Source of the DNA: Pelagomonas calceolata
Taxonomy: Eukaryota; Sar; Pelagophyceae; Pelagomonadales; Pelagomonadaceae
DNA length: 64,000 bases
Direction: 5' to 3'
Assembly: GCA_918797485.1 (NCBI GenBank)
Contig: CAKKNE010000004.1
Coordinates: 186,001 to 250,000 of the forward strand
Within the stretch, counting starts at the first letter, position 1. Each line of letters begins with the position of its first letter. The translations under genes and the position numbers were made by a program. Shown here piece after piece: positions 19,067-58,523 of this stretch. The notes under the pieces were generated by a model. It was not told the DNA's origin and did not search any database. It saw only the letters and a list, made by a program, of their open reading frames with translations.

Positions 19067-20893
19067 ATGGCGCCGCAGCACGCATTACTGCTGGTCACAC
19101 TGCTCACAGATGCCCTACACCTCCCAAGACGACCATTAGTCTTCGTCACGCCGCCCGGCTGGGCCGCGGCCGACCGCCGCGCCGACCTCGAACGCGTCGC
19201 GCGCGCCGCGGCGAAGGGCGGCGCGTCGCTGGTGCAGCTGCGCGACGCCGACGCGTCGAGGGACGAGTTGCAATCCGCCGCCGCCGCCGTGCGAGACGCG
19301 TTGCAAGGTACGGACTGCTCCGTAGTAATCAACGGCGTCGAACACCTGCCCGAGCGAAAGTGGCGAGCAGCAACAGAGCGACCAAATGGCCCGCTGGGCT
19401 GCTCGGCGCATTCGGTGGAGGCGGTCCTCGCGGCCGCCGCGTTGGGTGCGGACTACGTGCAGCTCGGCACCATGTTCGCGACGCAGACGCACCCCGGAAA
19501 AATACCCGAGGGGCCCGGCCTCGCGACCGAGTGCCGCCGCGCGCTCGACGAGCGAGAAGCGCCGCCTTTGTTGATCGGCGTCGGCGGCGTCGACGCGACG
19601 AACGCTGCAAAACTCATCGAGGCGGGCTGCGACGGCGTCGCGGTGATTCGGGGTATTTCGGATGCGCGCGACCCGGAGGCCGCGGCGCGGGCCATCTGCC
19701 GGGCGCTCGCCGGCGCCGGCACCCGTATTTCGAAGGCCGCCCAAAATACCAGAGCTGAGACGACCGCCCAAAATGCGGCGGACGTGCGTGAGCTGATGCG
19801 GACGCGGCTCTCCATGACCGAGGCGGAGCTGGATAGGATGGTGCGGCGTCGGCCCTTGGGCGCCAGAGCGACAGCGGAGCCGAAGCTCGACTGGCTACAG
19901 ACGCGCCTCGAACTAAGCGACGCGGGGCTGAAGAAGATGGTTCTGATGCAGCCGCAACTGCTGACGCAGAGCGTCGAGAAAATGGAGTCGAATTGTGACT
20001 GGCTACAGCGACGCCTCGACCTGGACGATTCGGGACTGAAGAAGGTCGTGTTGGAGAATCCGTCTCTACTGGCCTTCAGCGTCGAGGACAACATGGCGCC
20101 GAAGCTCAACTGGCTACAGGATCGTCTTAATTTGGACGCGGCGCAGCTAAAGAAGGTGGTGCTAGGGCGCCCGTCATTGCTGGGCTACAGCGTCGAGGAC
20201 AACATGGCGCCGAAGCTGGATTGGCTGCAGACGCGCCTCGAACTGGACGCGGCGCAACTAAAGAAGCTTGTTGTGGCGCAGCCGACACTGCTGGGCTACA
20301 GCGTCGATGCCAACATGGCGCCGACACTCGACTGGCTGCAGACACGTCTGGACCTGGACGACGCGGGGCTGAGGAAAGTGGTTCTGGTGAAACCTCAACT
20401 GCTGAACTACAGCGTCGAGGACAACATGGCGCCGACACTCGAGTGGCTCCAGACGCGTCTCGACCTGGATGACGAACAGCTGAGAAAGGCGGTTCTGAGG
20501 CTTCCGCCGCTGCTGGGCTACAGCGTCGAGGACAACATGGCGCCGAAGCTCGAGTGGCTACAGACGCGTCTCGAACTGGACGAGGCGCAGCTGAGGAAGA
20601 TGGTTTTGACGCTTCCGGCACTGCTAAGCTATAGCGCCGAGACCAACATGGCGCCGAAGCTCGCCTATCTTGAGCGGGAAACCGGCCTCTCGCGTTCCGA
20701 GCTTCGCGATCGCGTTCTGATATTTCCACAAATTATCAGCTACAGTCTAGAAAAGCGATACCGCCCGCGCCTCGAGGCGTGCCGCGCGGCCGGCGTCGAC
20801 GCGGAGTACGTCCTCACCTACGTCTCGAAAACGGACGAGAAATTCTACGAGCTCCTCGAGAAGAAGAAGGACGCCGTCGGGGAAACAATGTGA
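19067..20893 (+). CDS. ThiE/TenI-like domain fused to mTERF repeats
   Basis: 608 residues in one exon. The N-terminus, MAPQHALLLVTLLTDALHLP, is a signal or plastid-entry peptide. Residues ~24-230 are a thiamine-phosphate-synthase-like TIM barrel: GASLVQLRDADASRDEL, GCSAHSVEAV, GADYVQLGTMFATQTHPGK and PPLLIGVGGVDATNAAKLI, then AGCDGVAVIRGI. After a linker, residues ~270-570 are eight 36-residue mTERF repeats (LDWLQTRLELDxAQLKKxVL.. PxLLGYSVEDNMAPK), an organelle nucleic-acid-binding solenoid, encoded by a 108-bp tandem DNA repeat. mTERFs regulate plastid or mitochondrial gene expression. ThiE joins the thiazole and pyrimidine moieties of thiamine. A fusion of the two is unfamiliar to me. Confidence 0.85.
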   Translation: MAPQHALLLVTLLTDALHLPRRPLVFVTPPGWAAADRRADLERVARAAAKGGASLVQLRDADASRDELQSAAAAVRDALQGTDCSVVINGVEHLPERKWRAATERPNGPLGCSAHSVEAVLAAAALGADYVQLGTMFATQTHPGKIPEGPGLATECRRALDEREAPPLLIGVGGVDATNAAKLIEAGCDGVAVIRGISDARDPEAAARAICRALAGAGTRISKAAQNTRAETTAQNAADVRELMRTRLSMTEAELDRMVRRRPLGARATAEPKLDWLQTRLELSDAGLKKMVLMQPQLLTQSVEKMESNCDWLQRRLDLDDSGLKKVVLENPSLLAFSVEDNMAPKLNWLQDRLNLDAAQLKKVVLGRPSLLGYSVEDNMAPKLDWLQTRLELDAAQLKKLVVAQPTLLGYSVDANMAPTLDWLQTRLDLDDAGLRKVVLVKPQLLNYSVEDNMAPTLEWLQTRLDLDDEQLRKAVLRLPPLLGYSVEDNMAPKLEWLQTRLELDEAQLRKMVLTLPALLSYSAETNMAPKLAYLERETGLSRSELRDRVLIFPQIISYSLEKRYRPRLEACRAAGVDAEYVLTYVSKTDEKFYELLEKKKDAVGETM

Positions 20894-20913: not shown

Positions 20914-21927
20914 TTACCAGGTCGCAAACTTTGGGTCCGGCGCGGCCTCGAGGTCCTCGACGCCCGCAGGCTCGGGGCACTCGTCGAGGAGCCAGGACTG
21001 CAGATCGAGCGGCGACGTGAAGACGTCCTCGCCGCCCAGGCCCAACGCGCGCATTCGATGATGCGCGGCCGAGCCGAGCGCGGACTGGGCAGCCGCTAGT
21101 ACCGCAGACACATCTTCCACTGCCGGCGAAGCACCCATTCTCCGGAACCCCTTCAAATGGGACCAGGAAGACGGGTGCTCCCGCGGGTCCGCGTCCAGTT
21201 CAATAATGAACCTGTGTAGATATCAAATTTCGCGGCGCGTCTCCGCCACTGCCGAGTCTAACATTCACGCCATCAACGCGACGCCTGCTCGATGGCGTGG
21301 AGGCGTCGCGTCGATGGCGTGGCAGTGTGGGTCTTACACCACTCGATTCAGTCATCACGGCCGCTTTGTCGACGAAGGTGCATCCGACTCACTGGTTGAT
21401 TTCCACACAGTAATGAACGAGCCGGCGCAGTTGTCCCGCAGCACCGCGGCCGCGGCGTCGGCGGCGGCAGACCCCACGCAGACGCACGACACGCAGTCCA
21501 GCGCCTCCGCGAGGGCCGTCAACGACCCGGGGATGTCGTCCTTCACGAGGTCGCCGCAGACGCCGCGCTGAATCCCGTAGGGCGGCCCGCCCTCCTCGTA
21601 GAACGAGCAGGCGTTCTTCAGCCTCTGCTCCGTCGTCGCGTCCACGGACCGGCGCGGGTCCAATCCACCCATGAAGTCGGAGGACAGCGTCGACGACAGC
21701 GTCCGCCGCTCGAACGGATCTTTAAGGAGCGCCACCGGCTCCTTGAGCCCCGAGGCCCAGAGCCCCTTGAGCCGCTGCAGGTAGCCGTAGGTCGTCGCGC
21801 CGAGCTGCGTGCCGCAGGACAGGACGCCGACGTTTTCGCGGCCGCGGGCCGGGTCTTTGGCTGCGCCGCGCGGCGTCAGCGCTGATACCGTTTGCAGTGC
21901 ATAGATGAGGAGGAATTGGAGACGCAT
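20914..21927 (-). CDS. Secreted or plastid-targeted protein of unknown function, two exons
   Basis: Exon 1 is 21419-21927 and exon 2 is 20914-21211. Splicing at a GT in the target duplicate and the AG of the introner gives 268 residues in frame (CAGSFI then IELDADPRE). The N-terminus, MRLQFLLIYALQTVSALTP, is a clear signal peptide ending in an ASAF-like SALTP, compatible with plastid import. The mature part has several Cys (CSFYEEGG, GVCGDLV, LDCVSCVCVGSAAAD) and alternating Ala-rich helices. No family is recognised. Only 20 bp separate its stop from that of the ThiE/mTERF gene. Confidence 0.75.
21212..21410 (-). mobile_element. Introner with perfect 8-bp target duplication
   Basis: 199 bp with inverted ends (CTGTGTAGATATCAAATT at one side, TTGATTTCCACACAG at the other). 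It is flanked by identical TAATGAAC at 21204-21211 and 21411-21418. The interior holds a hairpin built on CGCCATC(G/A)ACGCGACG and CTGCTCGATGGCGTGG. The spliced intron is 21212-21418. Confidence 0.9.
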
Positions 21928-30791: not shown

Positions 30792-33700
30792 TCAAACACC
30801 TGTCGTCCGCCTCGACCGCACCACGGCCACGGCTGCCACCGTCGCGGCGGCGGCCGCCACGAGCAACACACGATTTCTAAAGAACGGCGGCGGCGGCGCG
30901 AGGCGCACCCGCACGCGCCGGTCGAGCGACGCCGGCAGCGCGCGCGTCAGCGTCGCGCCGACCGCGCTCACGCCCTCGGGCCCCGCCAGCGCCGCGCGCA
31001 CGCGTTCGTTCACGCGCATCGTCTCGGCCACCGTGGCCCCCACGTCGCCGCGGTACCGCGGGCTGAGGTAGGTCGAAGACACGGTCGCGGCCCAGTGGTT
31101 GTTCGTCCGCAACCGCTCGGCGCGGTCGTTCGCGAGGGCCTCGAGGACCGAGTCGAGGTCGCGTTTCTTCGGGCCCGCCTTCGCCGCCACCGCGAGCGCC
31201 GACCGGACCATGCCGTCCACCGCCTCGTGCCGCTCGGGCTGGTGCCCGCAGCTAATGTCGAGGATGCCGTCCAAAGGCCGCACCGCGTCGACGAGCGGAT
31301 CCGCCGTGTGGTAGTCGATGTACGCGCTCACGCTGTAGACGTCGGCCGCGTCGAACCGTAAAGCTTCGGTGAGCTGGAGCTGCAGGCACCGCGCCGCGAC
31401 GTCGACGCGCACGGACTCCGCGAGCCGCTCCTCGGCCTTCTCCTCGTCGGTGCTACCTTTGGAGGCGCCGACGCGCACGGGCCAGGACCACCTCGACCGC
31501 GCGCGCGCCAGCTGTTGATCGTCGTCCGTGACCGCCGCGGCCGTCGTCGCCCTTACCACGGCCTCGACCGGCCCTCTCGCCGGGAAGCTCGCGCCGAGGG
31601 GCTCGCACGCCTCCGCCGTGATCGGCGCCTCACCCTTCACGAAGCCGAACTCCTCGGCGCGCGGGTACGCCGCCCGGACCTGCGCCCGGCCCGGCAGGGG
31701 CGCCAGGTAGGCGTCCACCAACCTTGTGAGCGTCGCGTCGTCGGGCAGGCTGCCGACGATGGCGACGCGGAAGCCGTCCGGCGACCTGCGGACACGTCGC
31801 GTCGATGGCGTGGAGGCGCGACGCGCCGCGACAATTTGATTTATGCACTGCCGGCGGACGCAAATCCCGCGTCGTAAAAATCGCACGCCGTCGCCGCGTC
31901 GAACTCGTCCAGGTCGGCGTTCGTCCAGTGGCGCCAGAAGGGGTGGTCGCGCGTCACGAGCTGGTCGCGCTTCGTCGCGAAGCGCGCGCCGGGGTCGCGC
32001 TCCCGCTCCCGCACGGCGTCGCGGCTCGCGTCGACGTAGGTCCGCGCCTGGGCCTCGCTGCGCTGCGGCGTGTTGGCGAAGAGGCGCGCGAGGAGACCGA
32101 AGAGGGTCTCGACCTCGTCTGCCGTGCAATCCCCCGACACGATGCGCCGGTAGGCGTCGATGTCCGCGCCCAGCGCGACGCGCCGGCCGCCGAGCGCGTC
32201 GTTGAGCGCGGCGCGCGGCGCGCCAACCTGTGCGCAAATCAATCGGTGAGTCGGGTGCATTCGCCGCGACAATTTGATTTATGCACTGGCGCCGACGGCG
32301 CCGTAGCGCCCGGCGAGGCTCGCGCCGCCGCGCGCGCTCATCGCCAGTTTCGCGTCTTTCTTCGCGTCGCGCCCGCAGAGCCGGGACAGGCCGCCGGCCG
32401 CGCACCCGAACAGCACGACCTCGTCGTCCTTAAAGTCGGTGCGCACGAAGGTGACCGTGCCGCCGTTGCCCAGCGAGAGCTCCAGCGCCTCGAGGCCGTT
32501 CGGCAGAGGCAGGCGCCGGCTTGTCACGGACGAGCGCTCGCCAGTGGGCGGCGCGAAGAAGGCGTCGGCGTCGAAGGCCTCGGTCGCCGCGACGGCGCCG
32601 CCCGCCGCGTCGTCGAGTAATGTCTTTAGCTCGGCCTCGAGCGCCGCAGCGGGCACTGAGGGCGCCTGCCAGGGCCACCGGAAGCCCGGCGCGGGCCGCG
32701 TCGCCGCGACGACGGCGTCGAGGTTCTCCGCGGGGAACATGGCCGCGATCGCCTCTCGGACGTCCTCGACGGTGACCGTCTGCAGCAGCGCGGCCGCGAG
32801 CGCGACCTCGTCGCGGTCGTCGACGTACGGCGCCGCGAGCAGGAAGTGGTCCCGCGCCTCGTCGGCCAGCGATGACGACTCGGTCTGGTCCCGCTCCTTC
32901 CACTGCGTCTGCAGGTCGCCCAGGATCTCGCGCCGCGCCATGCGCAGCTCGTCCTCCGTGACGCGGTCGCGCTTCTCGACGACGACGCGCCACGCGCTCC
33001 GCAAAGCGTCGGCGACGCGGTCGTGGGCCAGGGGCACGGCGCTCAGCATGCTGACGGTCACGCCCTGGATGCCATCGGCGACGCGCCGCAGCGCGACGGG
33101 CGGCTGCGCGCCGACGGACGCCGAGCTGAACGGCGGCGCGCTCGCCATGGCGAGCTTCGCGAGCTGGCGGTTCACGACGTTCTGGGCCACGTCGCCGACG
33201 AGCCACCGCCGGAATCCGCCGACCGTCGTCGCGGCCTCGTAGCGCTTGGCCACACTGATAGCGGCGAAGGCCGACGTCGCCTCGGCGTCCTCGAAGACGC
33301 TCGCGCGGACGCGCCGCCGCGGCGCCTCCGCGAACACGGCGGCGCCGAAGCTTGACTCGTCGGGGAAGAAGGCCGCCGGCGCGCGCGGCCACGGCCGCGC
33401 GGCGCCCTTCCGAAAGTAGGGCGCGAAGGCCCGGTCGAGCTGGTCGACCTGGACCGCGTCGGGCACCGCGCCGACGACGATAACCTGTGTGGAAATCAAC
33501 CAGTTCGTCGGGTGCACTGACGCGGCCGTCCTGGCTCGGTCGAGCGGTGAGGAACCGGCATCACCACGCCATCGAGCAGACGTCGCGTCGATGGCGTGGA
33601 GGACGACGCGATGATTCAGCACAACGCGCCGTAAAAGTTTGATTTCCACACAGACAATAACGGCCAGGGCGTCGGCCGTGTAGTGCCGCTCGTAGAACCC

Positions 33701-34430
33701 TCGGATCGTCTCGGGCCGGGCCGTGCGCACGACCTCGAGGTTCCCGATGGGGAGGCGCGCCGCGAGCGTCGTGCCCTCGAACGTGTGGCGGAAGTGGCTT
33801 TCCGTGCCTGCGCAGCAATAAAAAATTACCGACTCGACACAGTGGTTGATTGCGACGCAGCTCGGTACTTCGCTGGGCCCAGTCCTTGCCCTGGCGCCAC
33901 TCCTCCAGCACGATCTTGCGCTCCGCGTCGACGTCGGACGCGTCGACCTTCGCCGCCTCGCCGACCAACGCCGCCAGCAGCTCCAACGCCCGCCCGAAGA
34001 AGTCCGCCGGCACGTGCAGAAAAAAGACCGTCTCCTCGAAGGACGTATAGGCGTTCTGGTGCGCGCCGAAGGAGACGCCGTGGGCCTCGAGCTCCCGCAG
34101 CGCGGACCAGCGCGTTCCGTCCGCGTCCGTGCGCGCCCGGAACGCGAGGTGTTCCAGGACGTGCGCGAGGCCTCGTTCGTCGTCCGTCTCGTCGATGGAG
34201 CCCGCCCGCACCGCAATCACGAGCTCCACGCGGTCGCGCGGCTCGTCATTTTTGCGCCAGTAATACGTGAGGCCGCTCTCCGGTAGCACGCCGGTCCGCG
34301 TCTTCGTGCCCCGCGGGAGCGGCGCGTCGTCGTCGAGCGGGCCGGTCCACTGCGGCAGCGACTCGATGAGTTTTTTCACGGCTTCCTCCTCGCGCTGCTG
34401 CCAGTTCGACGCATTGCTGGTGGATGGCAT
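30792..34430 (-). CDS. M16 (pitrilysin-family) zinc metallopeptidase, five exons
   Basis: Exons 33869-34430, 33662-33807, 32297-33484, 31860-32227 and 30792-31785 join in frame to 1085 residues. The inverted zinc motif HVLEH (His90, Glu93, His94) and a third ligand around Glu170 (DAERKIVLEEW) are intact. DADGTRWSALRELEAHGVSF and FYERHYTADALAVIVVG are also typical. Two M16 halves are recognisable, the second starting near FWRHWTNADLDEFDA; only the first has the zinc site, as in pitrilysin or insulysin. The C-terminus ends in a hydrophobic helix and basic tail (LLVAAAAATVAAVAVV, RSRR), suggesting a tail anchor. All four introns are introners, of 61, 177, 69 and 74 bp. Confidence 0.88.
31786..31850 (-). 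mobile_element. Introner in the M16 gene (fourth intron)
   Basis: Ends CAGTGCATAAATC (donor side) and GTCCGCAG (acceptor side). Flanked by GTCCGCCGG and GTCGCCGG, a slightly decayed duplication. The end toward 31850, ACAATTTGATTTATGCACTG on the plus strand, is identical to that of the element at 32228-32288. The intron is 31786-31859. Confidence 0.75.
32228..32288 (-). mobile_element. Introner in the M16 gene (third intron)
   Basis: 61 bp with ends CAGTGCATAAATCAA and TTGATTTGCGCACAG. Flanked by GTCGGCGC/GTTGGCGC (7 of 8 identical, minus strand). The intron is 32228-32296 with a GT donor from the duplicate. Confidence 0.85.
33485..33653 (-). mobile_element. Introner in the M16 gene (second intron)
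   Basis: 169 bp with 15-bp perfect inverted ends CTGTGTGGAAATCAA/TTGATTTCCACACAG. Flanked by GTTATTGT and GTTATCGT. The interior includes CTCCACGCCATCGACGCGACG and CTGCTCGATGGCGTGG (hairpin) and CACCGCTCGACCGAGCCAGG, nearly identical to the element at 38957 but in the opposite orientation relative to its host gene. The intron is 33485-33661. Confidence 0.93.
33808..33860 (-). mobile_element. Short introner in the M16 gene (first intron)
   Basis: 53 bp with ends CTGCGTCGCAATCAA and TTATTGCTGCGCAG. Flanked by GTACCGAG and GCACGGAA. The protein reading favours GCACGGAA as the original target, so the GT donor arose by change of the left copy. The intron is 33808-33868. Confidence 0.7.
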
Positions 34431-34582
34431 GCTGTCTCTCTGAGAGCAACTACTGCTGCACCACAGAGCGAGCTGTCCTCGCACAGGTGCGTGCAGTCGC
34501 CGAACAGCGATGTTCTTGGACCACCACGCGATGCGCGATCACGGCGGGGCCTCGCGTCTCGCGTTTTTTTTAGGCAAGAAGA

Positions 34583-37786: not shown

Positions 37787-40700
37787 CTAGGCGGGCGCGA
37801 CCGAGCCGCCGGGGTTCGACGCCGGCGCCCGCAGGCACCACAGCGCGCACCCGGCGCACCAGAACCAGGTGAAGCCCATCAGGTAGAAGAAAAATTCAAG
37901 GGCATGCGGCGCGTAGTAAAACCCCATGAGGACCCGGAGCCACAGGCCCTGGGGGGTTTCTTCGCAGTTGGGGTCCCGCCAGTACTGTCGATTTATTCGT
38001 GAGCAGTGCCTCGCCATTTCACTAGCATGGAGGCCCGCCCAAAGGAGGAGTCCCATGATGCCGGAGCCACAGAAGTGGTAGATGCACGTCGCTTTCCACG
38101 CGTACTTGTTGCAGCCGCAGCAAGTCGCCTCGGAGAAGACCACCGCGTCCAGCTCCTTCTGCGCCTCGTCGTCGGCCTCGGCCTGGAGCATCTCGGCGAT
38201 CTCCCGGCCGAGCCGCGACTGCGCCAGACCCTCCTCGCCGCCGGCAATCCTCAAAAACACCTTCTCCATCGTCGCGCGCGCGAGCGAAAAGTCGATCACG
38301 CCGAGCCGCGCGCACGCGTCGTCGTCGAACGCGCGGAACGCGAGCGCCGGCGTCCGCCGCGGGTCGACGCCCGCGAGCTCGAGCGTCGCAATGTCCGCGT
38401 CCGCGGCGGCGACGTCGACGTCCGGCGACGAAAAGGCCCCGCGCGCGAACGCCACGAGATCCGCGACGTGCGCGTCGTCCCGCGTCTCCAGGCGGCACGA
38501 GATCTCGTAGCCCGCCGCGTAGCGCTCCTTGAGCTCCTGCGGCGTCCCGATGCAGCGCATGGTGCCCTTGACCATGATGCCGACGCGGTCGCAGAGGAGA
38601 TCGGCCTCGCCCATCGAGTGCGTCGTCAGGACGACTGCGCGGCCCTTCATCGTGACCTTGATGAGGTCCCAGAGATTCCTTTGCGCTCCTGGATCCAGGC
38701 CCGACGACGGCTCGTCCAGCAACACCACCGAGGGGCCGCCGACCAGCGCCACCGCGACCGCCAGCTTGCGCTTCATGCCCCCCGACAGGCGGCCGGCCGC
38801 CTTGTCGGCGTGGTCGGACAGGCCGACGACGGCGAGCGCTTGCTCCGCGGCGTGGCGCGCGTCTCCTTCGATGTCGACGCCCCGGAGCCGCGCAAAGAGA
38901 CTCAGATGGTCTCGGCAGCTCAGGTGGTCCCAGAGGACGTTCTTCTGGTTGACGACCTGTGTGAAAATCAAAATTTTACGGCGCGTTCGTGCTGAATCAT
39001 CGCATCGTCCTCCACGCCATCGACGCGACGCCTGCTCGATGGCGTGGCGATGCCAGTTCCTCACCGCTCGACCGAGCCAGGACGGCCACGTCATCGCCGA
39101 GAAATGACTTAGTGAAGAATTGTCGGGTGCACCCGACGCATTGGTTGATTTCCACACAGTTGACGACGCCGAGCGACCGCGCTGCGTCCTCGAAGTCCTG
39201 TGTGGAAATCAAATTTCGGGCGCCCCACGCCATCGACGCGATATTTTCTCCGTAGCTGCGTCTGCTCGATGGCGTGAAAGTCAACCTAACTCACTGGTTG
39301 ATTTCCACACAGCTCTTGACGGCCAGCACGCTCTTCCCCGCGACCCTGGCGTCGCCGGACGTCGGCTCGACGGCGCGGCAGACCATCGACACGGTCGTCG
39401 TCTTCCCAGCGCCGTTCGCTCCTAGTAAACCAAAAACCTGGCCCGTCGGCACGCCGAACGCCGCGCACTGGACGGACTCGACGGCCGAACCGCCGAAGAA
39501 CCGCGGCGGGTAGATCTTCCGCAGGTCCGAGACGACGAGGCCGTCGCGGTCCGCTGACTTGATGTCTCGCACGAGCGGCGGAGGGTACGGGTCGTCGCCC
39601 GGCGGCACGTTCCGCAGCATGGCGACGGTGTCGCGCACGGCGGTGGAAAACCTCGTCGGCGGCGGCCGCGACGGCGGCGCCTCCTCCTCCGGCTCGTCTA
39701 CCACAATCTGAAAGTCGTCTTCGTTCGTCGACAGGGCGTCGCCCGCGCTCGCGGCGTCGCCCGCGCCGGTGAGCGCCGCGACGCGCGCGCGCTCCGCGGC
39801 GACGTCGTCGGGCATCGCGGTCGCGCGCACCTTGGAGACCCGCGTCTTCACCCAGGCGAGCGGGCGCAGGGCCCGTCGATCTTTAAAGACGACTATTCCT
39901 TCATAAAGTATGATGTGGAAAAAGGCAAAGATCACGGCTGCCCAGCCGCTCGGTAAAGGCGGGTCCGCGCGCTGCCGCCAGAGGGGCCCGTCGCCCGACG
40001 CCTCGAGAAACCCCCCGCGCTTCAGCTGCGGGTGGAAGGCCACCTTGCAGACCTGGACCGCCAGGTTGCCGAACGGCGTTGCGATTGACGCGAGCCACCC
40101 TATCTTACAGAAGAATTCCTGGAATAGGAGCTGGTTGGGTTTGCTGGTGGCGACCCACCAGAGGCCCGCGAGCCCGGCCGGCGCCGCGCCGCCCAGGAGA
40201 CCGATGAAAATGGGCGTCGACGCGACCGCGATGAGCGGCGAGTCGAACGTCGTCGTCGCAAAGTGCGAGAAGCTCACGATCCCGGCGCTACAGAGCGGCA
40301 GTAAAATCCACAACCACGGCCAGCGCTCCATCCAGCGGCGCACGACGAACTTCGTGGCGTTCTGCCGGGCCCCGGCCGCGTGATGTTTATCCCAGATGCT
40401 GTCGCAGTACCACTGTTCGATGGTATCATAGGGCTCGGAGTGCCACAGATCGTTCGGGTCTTCTTCGAAGCCCCCCGGGTACCGGTCGTGGAAGGCGATT
40501 TCTAGCGACGTGGCGGTCGCGTTGTAGGGCCCGAGGTCGAGGTCCCCCTTCCGAGCGGCCGCGTGGAGCTGCGCGTAAGTCGGCGCGCTGCTACATAACC
40601 GCTTGCGATATGCCATGCGGGTCGCCGCTAACATGAAGACGACGCAGACGGCGCCGCTCACGAGTACCAGCGCGTCGCTGAGCCAGTTTCCTAGCCAGTA

Positions 40701-43700
40701 CGTCAAAGTGTCGAGGCCCGAGACGGCCAATAGATTCCGCAGACCTCTGGCGCGCTCGCGGACGTAGGGCTCCACCACGAAGCCCGCCACAAGAAGATAG
40801 GCGGCCACCAGGACCCCCGCGACGAGGGTGTTGTAGTACTCCGCGTGTCTACTTTTGAAACCGAACGCCCGCTTTCCTTTGCCGGGCATTTGCGCGCGCA
40901 CGACCAGCGGCATCGCCGCCGCCGCCACTTGGAGGAGCACCAGGGTCGTTCCGTGTATCCCGGCAGAACAAAACGCCGAGGCGAAGACGGAGCCCAAAAC
41001 TTCCACGACGAGGCCAACAAAGAACCCGGCGACGCCGCCGGCGGTCCGCGCCCGCGCGCGGCGGCCCGCCGCGCTCGCGGCCATGCGCCGAAACGTCTTT
41101 TTGCGCACGCTCAGGCATACGCTCCTGTGCGGAAATAAACCGGCGTTTTGGGTGCTTGGACTCTACGCCCGTCGAAGATTTAGAATTGAGCACTGAAAGC
41201 GCGCCAGCCCGTGAGCCATCCGACTAGGCATCCCGCGACCGCGCCGGCTGCCGACGTGGGTACGCCAAAGTACGGCCGGAGGCCGGCCTCGAGGCCGACC
41301 GCTACGGCCGTGGCTATCGCCCACGTCAGCCCTCCCGTAAAGGCGTGAAGAACGAAATGATGCTGCGCATTTAAACCACACACGCAAACGCCGAAAACGG
41401 AGCCGACGACGCATCCCGCGACCGAAAACGGCGCGGACAACGAGGCGCCTCCAATAAAACGTATGCCGCACTCCAAAGCAGCCAAGGCGAGTGTCGAAGC
41501 CGCAACGGCCGATCCGGCCGCCGTGCCCGCCGCCCACCCCCGGGGCGAATCCCGGCTTCCCTTTTCGGTCAAGCCCACGGCCAAGCCAACGATAAACCCC
41601 GAGGACAAGACCGCGGCGAGCACGGCGAAATGCGTTGGCACGGTGAAAGTCGTGGCGCCGCCCTTGTCGCCGCGGGCGCGCTTGACGGCGCGCCGGAGCC
41701 CGCCGGGCAGCGCCGCGCCGCCGAGGACGAACTTTTTGATCCACACGAGGTCGTCTCTTATTTGCTGGAGCCTGTGTGGGAATCAAGAGGTGAGTCGAGG
41801 TCACTTTGATCTGTCTGCACCGCTGGGAGCCGAAACTGGACCACGGCCGCGACGAGCCTCCCCGCCGGCACCGGCTCGCCCGGCGCCGACGGCAGCAAGG
41901 CCCCGCCAACCAACGTCTCCGCCTCTACGGGCGCCGCCGCGCCCTCGACCTGCTCGCCGACGGATATGAACACGTCCTCGAGCGACGTCGCCGTCACGGA
42001 AACGTCGACGAGACCCAAGCCGTCGGCCTCGGCCTCCAGCCCCTCGAAGAGAGCGGCGACCCGTGACCTGGATGCGTGGATGGTGTACGTCGTCGTGACG
42101 TCGCGCGCGGAGTCCTCGAGGAGGGGGGCCTCGGCGCCGTCCGCCCAGTTCCGCGACGCGGAGAAGCTCGAGCCCCGGGTCGCGTTCAGGAGCGGACTCT
42201 TAAATGATGAGGAAAAGCTTTTGGGTGTCGACCCGAGGAGCGGATTCGCGGCGTCCTTTTCGGTCGCCCGGCGGAGGTCCTCCTCGAGCTTCGAGGCCGC
42301 CGCTAGCTTCGCTTTGGGCATGTGCTGCGCAAAAACCGCTTTAAGTTGATCGCGCGCCGCGGCGGCCGTCGTCACCGCCACGTGGAGGCCGCCGATTGAC
42401 GTGTCCGACGTGTCCGCGCCGTCCGCTGCGTCGCCGCCGCCTCCGAAGCGCCGCTTCAGGAAAGAGAGAGTGCCGCAGCACTTCACGCTCCCGGCCGCCA
42501 TGATCGCCACCCGGTCCGCCAATGCTTCGGCCTCCTCCATGTGGTGCGTCGTGAGGAGCACCGACCGGTCGACGCGGACGTCGCGCAGCAGGGTCCAGAC
42601 CTCGCGCCGCGCCACGGGATCCATCCCCGCCGTCGGCTCGTCGAGGACCACGAGTCTGGACCCGCCGGTCAGCGCCGCGGCCATCATGACCTTGCGCTTC
42701 TGGCCGCCCGAGAGCTTGAGCGGAAACCCCTCGGCCATTTCCGTGAGGCGGAAGAGCTCCAGCAGGCCAGACGCCTCGTTCTCCGCTCTAGATTCCTCGA
42801 CGCCCTTGAGCCGCGAGTAGAAAATGAGGTGCTCCCGGAGCGTGAGCCGAGGGAATAGCGCGTCGTGCTGCGGGCAGAAGCCGAGGAGCTGGCGGAGCCT
42901 ATCCAAACCATCTGCGTCGGCTAAGGGGCCGAGCGTGCGGATCCCAAAGAAACTTGCGCTGCCGCCGTCGGGCGCCATCGCTCCAGTAATCATCGACATG
43001 GTGGTCGTCTTGCCCGCGCCGTTGTGACCCAGCAGGCAGAAGATCTCCGAGTCTCGAATCGCGAACGTCGCGTCAGATACGGCGACCTTCTTCCCGAAGA
43101 CCTTCCGGAGGCCTCTTACCTGGACCGGCGCGTCGGCGCTTTCATCGTTCTCGAACCACTCGTCGTGGTTCACGAGCGGCGCCTTCTCTACGACCTCGTC
43201 CGGCGGCGGCGGTCGCCAGTACGCCTTCCGGAGGCAAAACAGCAGGTCCTTGCCCTTGCCCCGCGCCGCCGACGTGGAGACCTGGATCACGTACCACAAG
43301 ATGGCCGCCCACAGCGCCACGGACACCATCAGCATGCAGTAGACCCCGGCCGTCCACGAGGACTCGGGCCGCCAGCCCCGATCCTCAGTCTTCTCGTACC
43401 AGAAGGGCCAGACGTCCTCGCACATGAGGTGCTCGTCGGCGCAGGGCGCCGCCGTCAGCGACTGGCTCTGCAGATACTGCTCGAAAGCCTCGAGCCGCGG
43501 CCTCGGGGCTTTTTCCCAGCACTCTTTTCTGCACATCTCGCACGGGTAGCGCTCCCCCACAAAGCCGTCGGCGACGAGCCGGCACCGCCAGCCCGCTCGT
43601 TTTTTCGTCGGGCTGAACGAGTCCACCAACAAATCGTAGGCGAACTGCGGCAGGAGCGCGCTGGCGAAGTGCGCGCGCGGCCGCGCCCGCAAGCGCCAGT

Positions 43701-57376: not shown

Positions 57377-58523
57377 TTAATCTCGCCGAGCGTCCACGTG
57401 CGACGCGAGCGTGTCGTGCTCCGCCTCGCCGCAGCCCGGCCACTTCCAGAAGCTGGAATAGCCGTGGTGCCGCAGGTGCTCGCGCACCGCCAGGTACTCC
57501 TCGTCCGACAGGTGGACGGACTCATAGAGGACATGGTCCGGCCGCGGGGCGAGGCGGCTGAAATTCGTCGCCAGGATGATGGCGTGCTCGAGCTTCTCGG
57601 TGTCGAGCTGGAGGATGTCGACGCGGTCGGGCAGCCACGGCGCGACGTGGCGGCGCCACAGCGACTCGAGCGAGAGGCACGTCACGTCGACCCGCGCGAA
57701 GGCGGAGGGGTCCGCCTCAAAATCTCGTTTGTCGATCGACGCCGCCTCGGCCGTAGGATGCGCCGCGTCCACGTAGAGCGTCGCCGGGCCGTCCGCCCCA
57801 CAAACTGCTGCATTGACGGCCGAGACCCGATCTGACGCATTCGCGTAGTTCTGTGCCAGCAGTTTGAACGTTGTGGGATTCGGTTCCACCACCATACCCC
57901 GCCACTGAAACTTCTTTTGGTCCATCCAGATGGGCTCGCCGCAGACGGCGCATTCGTAGGTGCCTGTGTGGAAATCACATCTCTGTACTGCGTCTGCTCG
58001 ATAGCGTGGAGGTTCACGAAGGTTGATTTCCACACGGCGGCCAACCGCAGTTGGCCCCGACCTGCACAAACGCAATCTTCCTAGGATCCGCCGCAACGAG
58101 GTCGTTCCACAGCGGCATTGCGAAGCCCTCGCGGCCGCCGCGATTTAGGGATACGCGTTTGACGAAGCTCCGCGCGCAGTCGTCCCAGCCCGTGTGGTCG
58201 AGCCCATCGCACGCGACGGCAGCCCTCTCGCGCGGATCGTCGGAGGGGGCGACGTCTACGCTTCGCAGGCCCGCGCCGTCCACCACGATGTCTATCGTGA
58301 GCGTTCGGTCCTGTTCGACGCGCGCGACCATCAGATCGACGCACTCTTGAATTGTGCGTCCCTCGTAGACCTTTTCGCACGCTCGCGCCACCGCGGCCCG
58401 GACGTCGTCGGTCCAGCCTACTTCAAAGTTCACCCTGTCGGCGCCCTCCCCGACGTAATACTCGCGCGGCGCCCCGATCTGCGCGGCCGCAAAGCCACAA
58501 ACGACGAGGGCGCGGCGAGCCAT
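57377..58523 (-). CDS. FkbM-type methyltransferase, two exons
   Basis: Exon 1 is 58046-58523 and exon 2 is 57377-57963, giving 354 residues. The join gives FVQVGANCGTYECAVCGEP, the FkbM opening (FVQIGANDG). FkbM motifs continue: GMVVEPNPTTFKLLAQNY, VSAVNAAVCG, EAASID, VDILQLDTEKLEHAIIL. FkbM enzymes are SAM-dependent O-methyltransferases, often acting on sugars or small molecules. The N-terminus (MARRALVVCGFAAAQIGA) is signal-like, and residues 25-120 are an unrecognised domain. The invariant Glu/Gly of DTEG appears as DTEK. Confidence 0.82.
57964..58037 (-). mobile_element. Introner in the FkbM-type gene
   Basis: 74 bp with ends CCGTGTGGAAATCAACC and ATGTGATTTCCACACAG. The inner hairpin uses CTCCACGCTATCGAGCAGACG. 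The flanking octamers GTTGGCCG and GCACCTAC do not match. The intron is 57964-58045 with a GT donor. Confidence 0.8.

Follow-up and report, generated by a model that had tools for sequence, protein, structure and literature searches.

In a 64,000-nucleotide stretch of the Pelagomonas calceolata genome (contig CAKKNE010000004.1, positions 186,001 to 250,000 of the forward strand; hereafter the window), several genes, among them one for an M16 metallopeptidase, are interrupted by copies of a short element with inverted ends. Judged from sequence, these copies are, with a probability that we put at about 0.93, introners: copies of a short DNA transposon, predicted to be non-autonomous, each of which would be turned into a spliceosomal intron by its insertion into a gene. 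The elements share their inverted ends, lie between copies of an 8-bp duplication and have a predicted splice donor that follows a rule on the sense strand of the host gene; their removal in silico restores the host reading frame.

Inverted ends, copy number and an 8-bp duplication

The elements are short and bounded by inverted ends, CTGTGTGGAAATC...GATTTCCACACAG. The genome examined comprises 32,445,274 bases in 8 contigs; the P. calceolata RCC100 assembly is described, in the relevant passages of PMC9481584, as six nuclear contigs totalling 32.4 Mb together with one contig each for plastid and mitochondrion. Exact matches to the 13-base end number 878 in one direction and 843 in the other (1,721 in all), against 1 and 0 for a reversed control pattern. 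Allowing at most two mismatches, the 15-base end was found 1,653 and 1,597 times (3,250), against 14 and 8 (22) with the pattern reversed. Division of the 3,250 ends by two gives a likely figure of roughly 1,600 copies in the genome, an estimate that assumes two recognisable ends kept per element. Near-identical full-length copies (87-99% identity) lie on contigs C1-C6, among the best 40 candidates scored per similarity search. The preliminary description of this DNA had made its reading depend on other genomic copies with matching ends, and the 1,721 exact ends supply them; the set in the window, which it had called unusually complete, is better regarded as ordinary for a genome with a likely complement of this size. 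Within the window itself, with as many as 4 mismatches allowed, the 15-base end was matched 12 times on the left and 8 times on the right; no more than 3 mismatches were present in 9 of the left and 6 of the right matches. Five base-by-base shuffles of the window gave no left match at up to 3 mismatches, a control that covers the left end.

The flanks were analysed in a sample of adjacent left and right ends, each with at most 3 mismatches of 15 and 30-600 bp apart, chosen blind to the flanks. The sample was drawn from the window and from loci fetched from the same genome and contained 85 pairs, 5 of them from the window. Most loci came from two similarity searches, in which the best 40 of 875 and the best 40 of 798 candidates were scored, so that young copies are over-represented; the cut-off on the ends also drops decayed copies, including the window copies at 32228, 31786 and 33808. 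The sampled elements measured 68-204 bp, and terminal inverted repeats (CTGTGTGGAAATCAA) were present both in the sample and in the genome-wide end counts. Of the 85 pairs, 77 were flanked by an 8-bp duplication that had 2 mismatches or fewer, the octamers differing at no position in 52, at one in 20 and at two in 5; the other 8 pairs showed 5-7 mismatches. When one octamer was shifted in register by 1-3 bases, at most 4/85 pairs reached the same threshold, and the target duplication is thus of a fixed length of 8 bp. Together with the genome-wide count, these tests fit the earlier proposal of introners built from an inverted-repeat element with an 8-bp duplication.

One copy has an unusual setting. 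At L038:1493-1711, both ends of a 203-bp element are perfect, and its flanking octamers (GTTCTGGC / ACCAGAAC) are reverse complements of each other with one mismatch, not direct repeats; perhaps this pattern arose by inversion between copies.

Predicted introns of the M16 gene and a donor rule on the sense strand

The M16 gene and its four predicted introns are as follows.

30795..34538, minus strand: M16 metallopeptidase gene; spliced frame open for 1,121 codons, first methionine at 34430; longest unspliced frame 645 codons
33808..33868, minus strand: predicted intron 1 of the M16 gene, introner-like; 53-bp element (33808-33860), degraded ends, no clear duplication
33485..33661, minus strand: predicted introner intron 2; 169-bp element (33485-33653) plus octamer, both 13-base ends exact, 7/8 duplication
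32228..32296, minus strand: predicted introner intron 3; 61-bp element (32228-32288) plus octamer, 7/8 duplication (GCGCCAAC/GCGCCGAC)
31786..31859, minus strand: predicted introner intron 4; element 31786-31850, donor flank 31851-31859, duplication with a one-base indel

All four introners previously assigned to this gene could be located, the outer two being decayed: the 31786 copy has badly decayed ends and flanks that differ by one inserted base (CCGGCGAC versus CCGGCGGAC), and the 33808 copy is degraded as listed. M16 domains were found in the 1,121-codon protein obtained by removal of the four introns. When only three were removed and the 33485 intron was kept, the open frame was longer still (1,180 codons), because the 33485 element is in frame and free of stops; frame length alone is therefore no proof of its removal, which is supported by alignment. 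A full-length homologous protein of 1,080 amino acids, 84% identical (P0001), aligns across all four junctions with neither insert nor gap. This protein, encoded on a 5,224-bp contig, contains no residues from the introners; the contig could be a transcript, or its gene may have been spliced before translation. The pelagophyte proteins P0003, P0005, P0006 and P0007 likewise have no insert or gap at the junctions that they cover, P0005 being without the stretch around the second. The gap-free alignment agrees with the earlier claim that taking out the element plus one octamer exactly restores the ancestral exon.

A metagenome protein (P0004), 98% identical over 37% of the M16 protein, spans the place of the 32228 introner without containing it; when a shifted frame is read by eye, the 31786 introner is absent as well. 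Elsewhere the protein has ~23 unrelated extra residues. It may reflect presence/absence variation of introners. As it could derive from DNA or RNA and carries the extra residues, it was not used as evidence.

In the window copies for which this had been described, all in minus-strand host genes, the left end of the element indeed gives the 3' AG and the right octamer the 5' GT. A codon model trained on 25 long window frames was then applied to the 77 duplicated copies to call the strand of the host gene, and 63 of the 77 calls were confident (62 under an earlier version of the confidence rule, which left the GC and GA counts unchanged). In these 63 copies, the octamer on the sense strand began with GT in 49, GC in 13 and GA in 1, and that at the antisense end with GT in 8 and GC in 5. 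G followed by a pyrimidine (GY) was thus present at the sense end in 62/63 and at the antisense end in 13/63 (Fisher p = 2e-21). An AG stood at the element's sense end in 63/63 copies and at the opposite end in 59/63. In the lone GA copy (L033:1501), the opposite strand shows GT, and the strand may have been called wrongly; with the strand call ignored, all 77 duplicated copies show GT (63) or GC (14) on at least one strand. The earlier claim that the duplicated octamer supplies a GT donor accordingly holds for most copies, GC taking its place in about one in five. Genome-wide, GY was found eight bases outside 1,074/1,721 exact ends (62%; interval 60-65%), and with GY at nearly all sense ends and at 21% of antisense ends one would expect about 60%, that is, (62+13)/126. 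Retention of octamer and element would bring a frameshift or an in-frame stop into 56/63 copies, and removal in silico left the frame open across +-120 bp in 62/63. In silico, the predicted splice sites that the insertion creates or brings with it, GY...AG on the sense strand in 62/63, restore the coding frame.

These data suggest a simple route from insertion to intron. A putative transposase would insert the element and duplicate 8 bp of host DNA. The ends being inverted copies of each other, an element inserted either way round would present TTGATTTCCACACAG, which reads as a complete acceptor with a branch-like TTGAT, a pyrimidine run and CAG (TTGAT-TTTCC-ACACAG). Where the octamer starts with GY on the sense strand, the spliceosome would remove octamer and element and thereby restore the pre-insertion message. 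The major spliceosome probably carries out this step; the genome contains two candidates for U1 small nuclear RNA (snRNA), scoring 64.3 and 58 bits and thus under the Rfam cut-off of 69.5, and both begin with ATACTTACCTG, which we take to be the usual U1 sequence. Coding insertions without GY would mostly be lost through selection.

Several observations weigh against this reading. The elements are unevenly oriented in their genes, 34 copies having end 1 at the 3' side, 15 being reversed and 14 unclassified, and the two orientations may differ in splicing efficiency. The sense-side end is no better conserved than the other, having fewer mismatches in 5 copies, more in 14 and equal numbers in 44; asymmetric end decay was therefore set aside as a test of selection, the sign test giving p = 0.06 in the opposite direction and only the AG fitting (0 versus 4 changes). 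Eight of the 85 pairs, two of them in the window, have no duplication. GY stands at the donor place on the called strand in 6 of these eight and is absent from the expected place in the other two (L012 and L085). The element end itself contains an internal GT (CTGT/GTGG, the slash marking the cut), so that an inner donor, adding 12 bp, is possible for single copies; the gap-free alignments of the M16 protein and of an aldolase described below count against its use. The displayed alignment of an aminopeptidase (L115) has a one-residue gap near a GC-donor junction and is weaker than the others. Limited searches also found no transposase with matching ends.

At the sense 3' end, base 8 from the outside is changed in 7/63 copies, in four of them from C to T within the pyrimidine run, and in 0/63 at the antisense end. 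Acceptor tuning or subfamily drift is a possible cause of these changes.

We considered three other explanations for the elements. Were they ordinary miniature inverted-repeat transposable elements lying in genes, with GY at the octamer start reflecting a target preference of the transposase and the copies being untranslated or disabling, a preference for certain target bases would be expected; a weak, symmetric one is indeed seen, the second base from the antisense end being a pyrimidine in 48/63 copies and the octamer favouring C as its third base and G as its fourth. Target preference alone is blind to the strand of the gene, so the contrast in GY between the sense and antisense ends counts against this explanation, and so does the finding that the flanking frames, most of which retention would break, are intact and, in the genes examined, conserved. 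We regard it as improbable.

Use of the inner GT as the general donor (CTGT/GTGGAAATC) would leave the left octamer and four bases, 12 bp, in the message, as in a family from an Aureococcus metagenome-assembled genome (MAG); such a 4 + 8 bp addition is described for 'Aureococcus sp.' in the part of Gozashti et al. (PMC9860276) that deals with it, and a GT does exist in the element end. An inner donor predicts an octamer start free of constraint and four extra residues at the junctions, whereas all but one of the confident copies have GY and neither the M16 protein nor the aldolase has any extra residue, which makes this alternative very improbable. Spread through RNA, in which reverse splicing copies introns and repeats are a by-product of shared sequence, is scarcely credible here, since the 8-bp duplications (52/85 exact) and the inverted ends in both orientations to the gene are marks of DNA transposition, and the fungal introners for which reverse splicing has been proposed lack both duplications and inverted ends, according to the corresponding passages of PMC9860276.

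GC donors and the excess of GC-AG introns

The introner reading makes a GC donor a product of the host octamer. GC donors account for the 13 of 63 confident copies given above and for 17/77 of all duplicated copies. Among octamers that do not begin with GT, GC is found in 13/14 at the sense end versus 5/55 at the antisense end (Fisher p = 3e-9). Dinucleotide supply in the window is 5.3% for GT and 13.0% for GC, and relative to that supply a GC site is used about 1/9 as often as a GT site, a crude figure for which the antisense-end background gives a weaker contrast.

Spliced frames were built for all 17 copies with GC donors, and 6 from recognisable families were chosen by eye for searches. 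The class II aldolase part (177 residues) of L032 aligns without a gap over the GC junction to its best solved structure, 7rgn (one of 24 matches shown); the rest of this frame includes another unspliced stretch. For the flavodoxin part of L112, the GC junction is gap-free in the two alignments shown of 77. The best Pfam stretch spans the GC junction in L112, L026 and L016 and stops short of it in L091. An altered U1 snRNA was considered as the cause of the GC donors and is not supported, both candidates having the 5' end presumed usual.

According to the relevant passages of Iwata and Gotoh (PMC3033335), GC-AG introns make up 39.6% of introns in Aureococcus anophagefferens and 22.2% in Micromonas pusilla, compared with 1.3% over all species; the authors link this abundance to high genomic G+C, consider that other factors are needed and find it not easily explained. 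Introner families with 0-50% GC donors are listed in the part of Gozashti et al. on donor use (PMC9860276). Taking the donor from the target duplication is what would give rise to GC-AG introners among our copies, and we lean, if only slightly, towards a general account: a donor drawn from duplicated host DNA would turn the spliceosome's tolerance of GC into GC-AG introns, the sense-strand GY rule would act as a survival filter on insertions, and introner invasion would have caused the GC-AG excess in Aureococcus and Micromonas pusilla, the two classical introner species. No paper found in the open-access literature, which does not include Huff et al., states donor capture from the duplication as the cause of this excess. 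What is new here is the sense-strand GY rule. It separates insertion preference from splicing selection in a single count and hints at how these algae may have come by their unusual GC-AG introns; the main use of the system is as a clean, countable test of donor supply by target duplication, GC donors included.

Transposon affiliation, known introners and other window copies

The genome was searched for transposases of the KDZ, hAT, MULE, Merlin/IS1595 and P families, a crude first look whose negatives are weak. This search gave no match for PF10551 (MULE), PF12762 (Merlin), PF21787 (P) or PF18758 (KDZ); for PF21787 and PF18758, the control genomes gave no match either. One hAT element was detected at G000:C4:4499541-4503200 (L083/L084). 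It is apparently complete, with a single 721-codon frame that includes a hAT dimerisation domain, exact 12-bp ends CAGGGCAGCAGA and an 8-bp duplication TTGCTCGC, and no second copy turned up when its protein was used as a query. It resembles the introners in the length of its duplication and differs from them in its ends and in being single-copy; having its own ends and duplication, it was ruled out as an introner partner by sequence match. Members of the hAT superfamily typically make 8-bp duplications and have ends beginning with CAG. The introners have the 8-bp duplication, their ends begin with CTGTG, and no hAT transposase was found to share them.

Unpartnered ends, with no second end within 700 bp, numbered seven in 325,676 bases of window and fetched loci, some of which overlap; three lie in the window and were taken for decayed copies, and the one in L115 belongs to a short copy whose right end has lost one base. 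Of the features that the preliminary description proposed to look for elsewhere in the genome, terminal inverted repeats and 8-bp duplications are present, and no autonomous partner with the same ends was seen in the ~1% of the genome that was readable. Viral carriage of the element was rejected. A single match to the 15-base end was found in each of 43 viral contigs, with no exact pair, and neither longer patterns taken from one end or the other nor a pair pattern with a short gap gave any match, in scans that may omit records of or near the P. calceolata genome; we read the 43 single matches as chance, by judgement rather than by a computed expectation.

How introns originate is an old question, and among the sources of mass intron gain introners are the clearest. 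The elements described here form a well-supported introner family of an already known kind, as in Aureococcus and Micromonas, and offer a likely total of roughly 1,600 copies with readable duplications in the chromosome-scale assembly of an open-ocean alga. An intron-length peak of ~210 bp in P. calceolata was noted by Guerin et al. 2022 (PMC9481584); those introns, known here by length from passages of that paper, are of introner length and very likely come from the same genome. The introners of Aureococcus anophagefferens (Huff et al. 2016), as far as the available description goes, are similar in their pelagophyte host, ~200-bp introns, co-opted splice sites, terminal inverted repeats, direct repeats of constant length and insertion in both orientations, a likeness of description and not of end sequences. 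Symbiodinium microadriaticum introners, in the account of Gozashti et al. 2022 (PMC9860276), share the terminal inverted repeats but have a 4-bp instead of an 8-bp duplication. Family 4 of the 'Aureococcus sp.' MAG, as presented in the same source, has an 8-bp duplication and a host labelled with the pelagophyte genus Aureococcus; there, both splice sites lie within the element and 12 bp are added, whereas nothing is added in the protein alignments examined here.

The remaining features of the window are listed below.

21212..21418, minus strand: predicted introner intron; 199-bp element (21212-21410), 8/8 duplication TAATGAAC
37790..41162, minus strand: ABC-transporter frame; 1,013 codons with both introners removed, 623 unspliced
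38957..39167, minus strand: predicted introner intron of the ABC-transporter gene; 203-bp element (38957-39159), 8/8 duplication TTGACGAC
39198..39320, minus strand: second predicted introner intron of the same gene; element 39198-39312, GT donor, no recognisable duplication (6/8 differ)
41125..41193, minus strand: tentative decayed introner; left end at 2 mismatches, right boundary guessed
41772..41830, minus strand: tentative decayed introner; GC donor, left flank GCTGGAGC, right flank GCTGGGAGC, right boundary not fixed by the frame test
57964..58045, minus strand: predicted introner intron of an FkbM-type methyltransferase gene; 74-bp element (57964-58037), GT donor, no recognisable duplication (7/8 differ)

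The shared ends and matching octamers reported for the best window copies were recovered, at 8/8 for 21212-21410 and 38957-39159 and at 7/8 for 32228-32288 and 33485-33653. Four unrelated window genes host introners by in silico splicing (the 21212 gene, the M16 gene, the ABC transporter and the FkbM-type gene) rather than the five first counted, the 41125 and 41772 copies being tentative. The 1,013-codon ABC-transporter frame was obtained only by double removal. The two introners of this gene lie 38 bases apart, element to element, and flank a 30-base exon within the ABC_tran (ATPase) domain, both junctions lying within the stretch matched by Pfam ABC_tran. In the predicted RNA fold of either strand (z = -4.9 and -4.2), the two terminal repeats of the 38957 copy are base-paired with each other. 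At 20000-20743, within a long plus-strand frame, the window also contains a tandem repeat with a 111-base period, seen as five overlapping 300-base matches of which the other four are 65-77% like the first.

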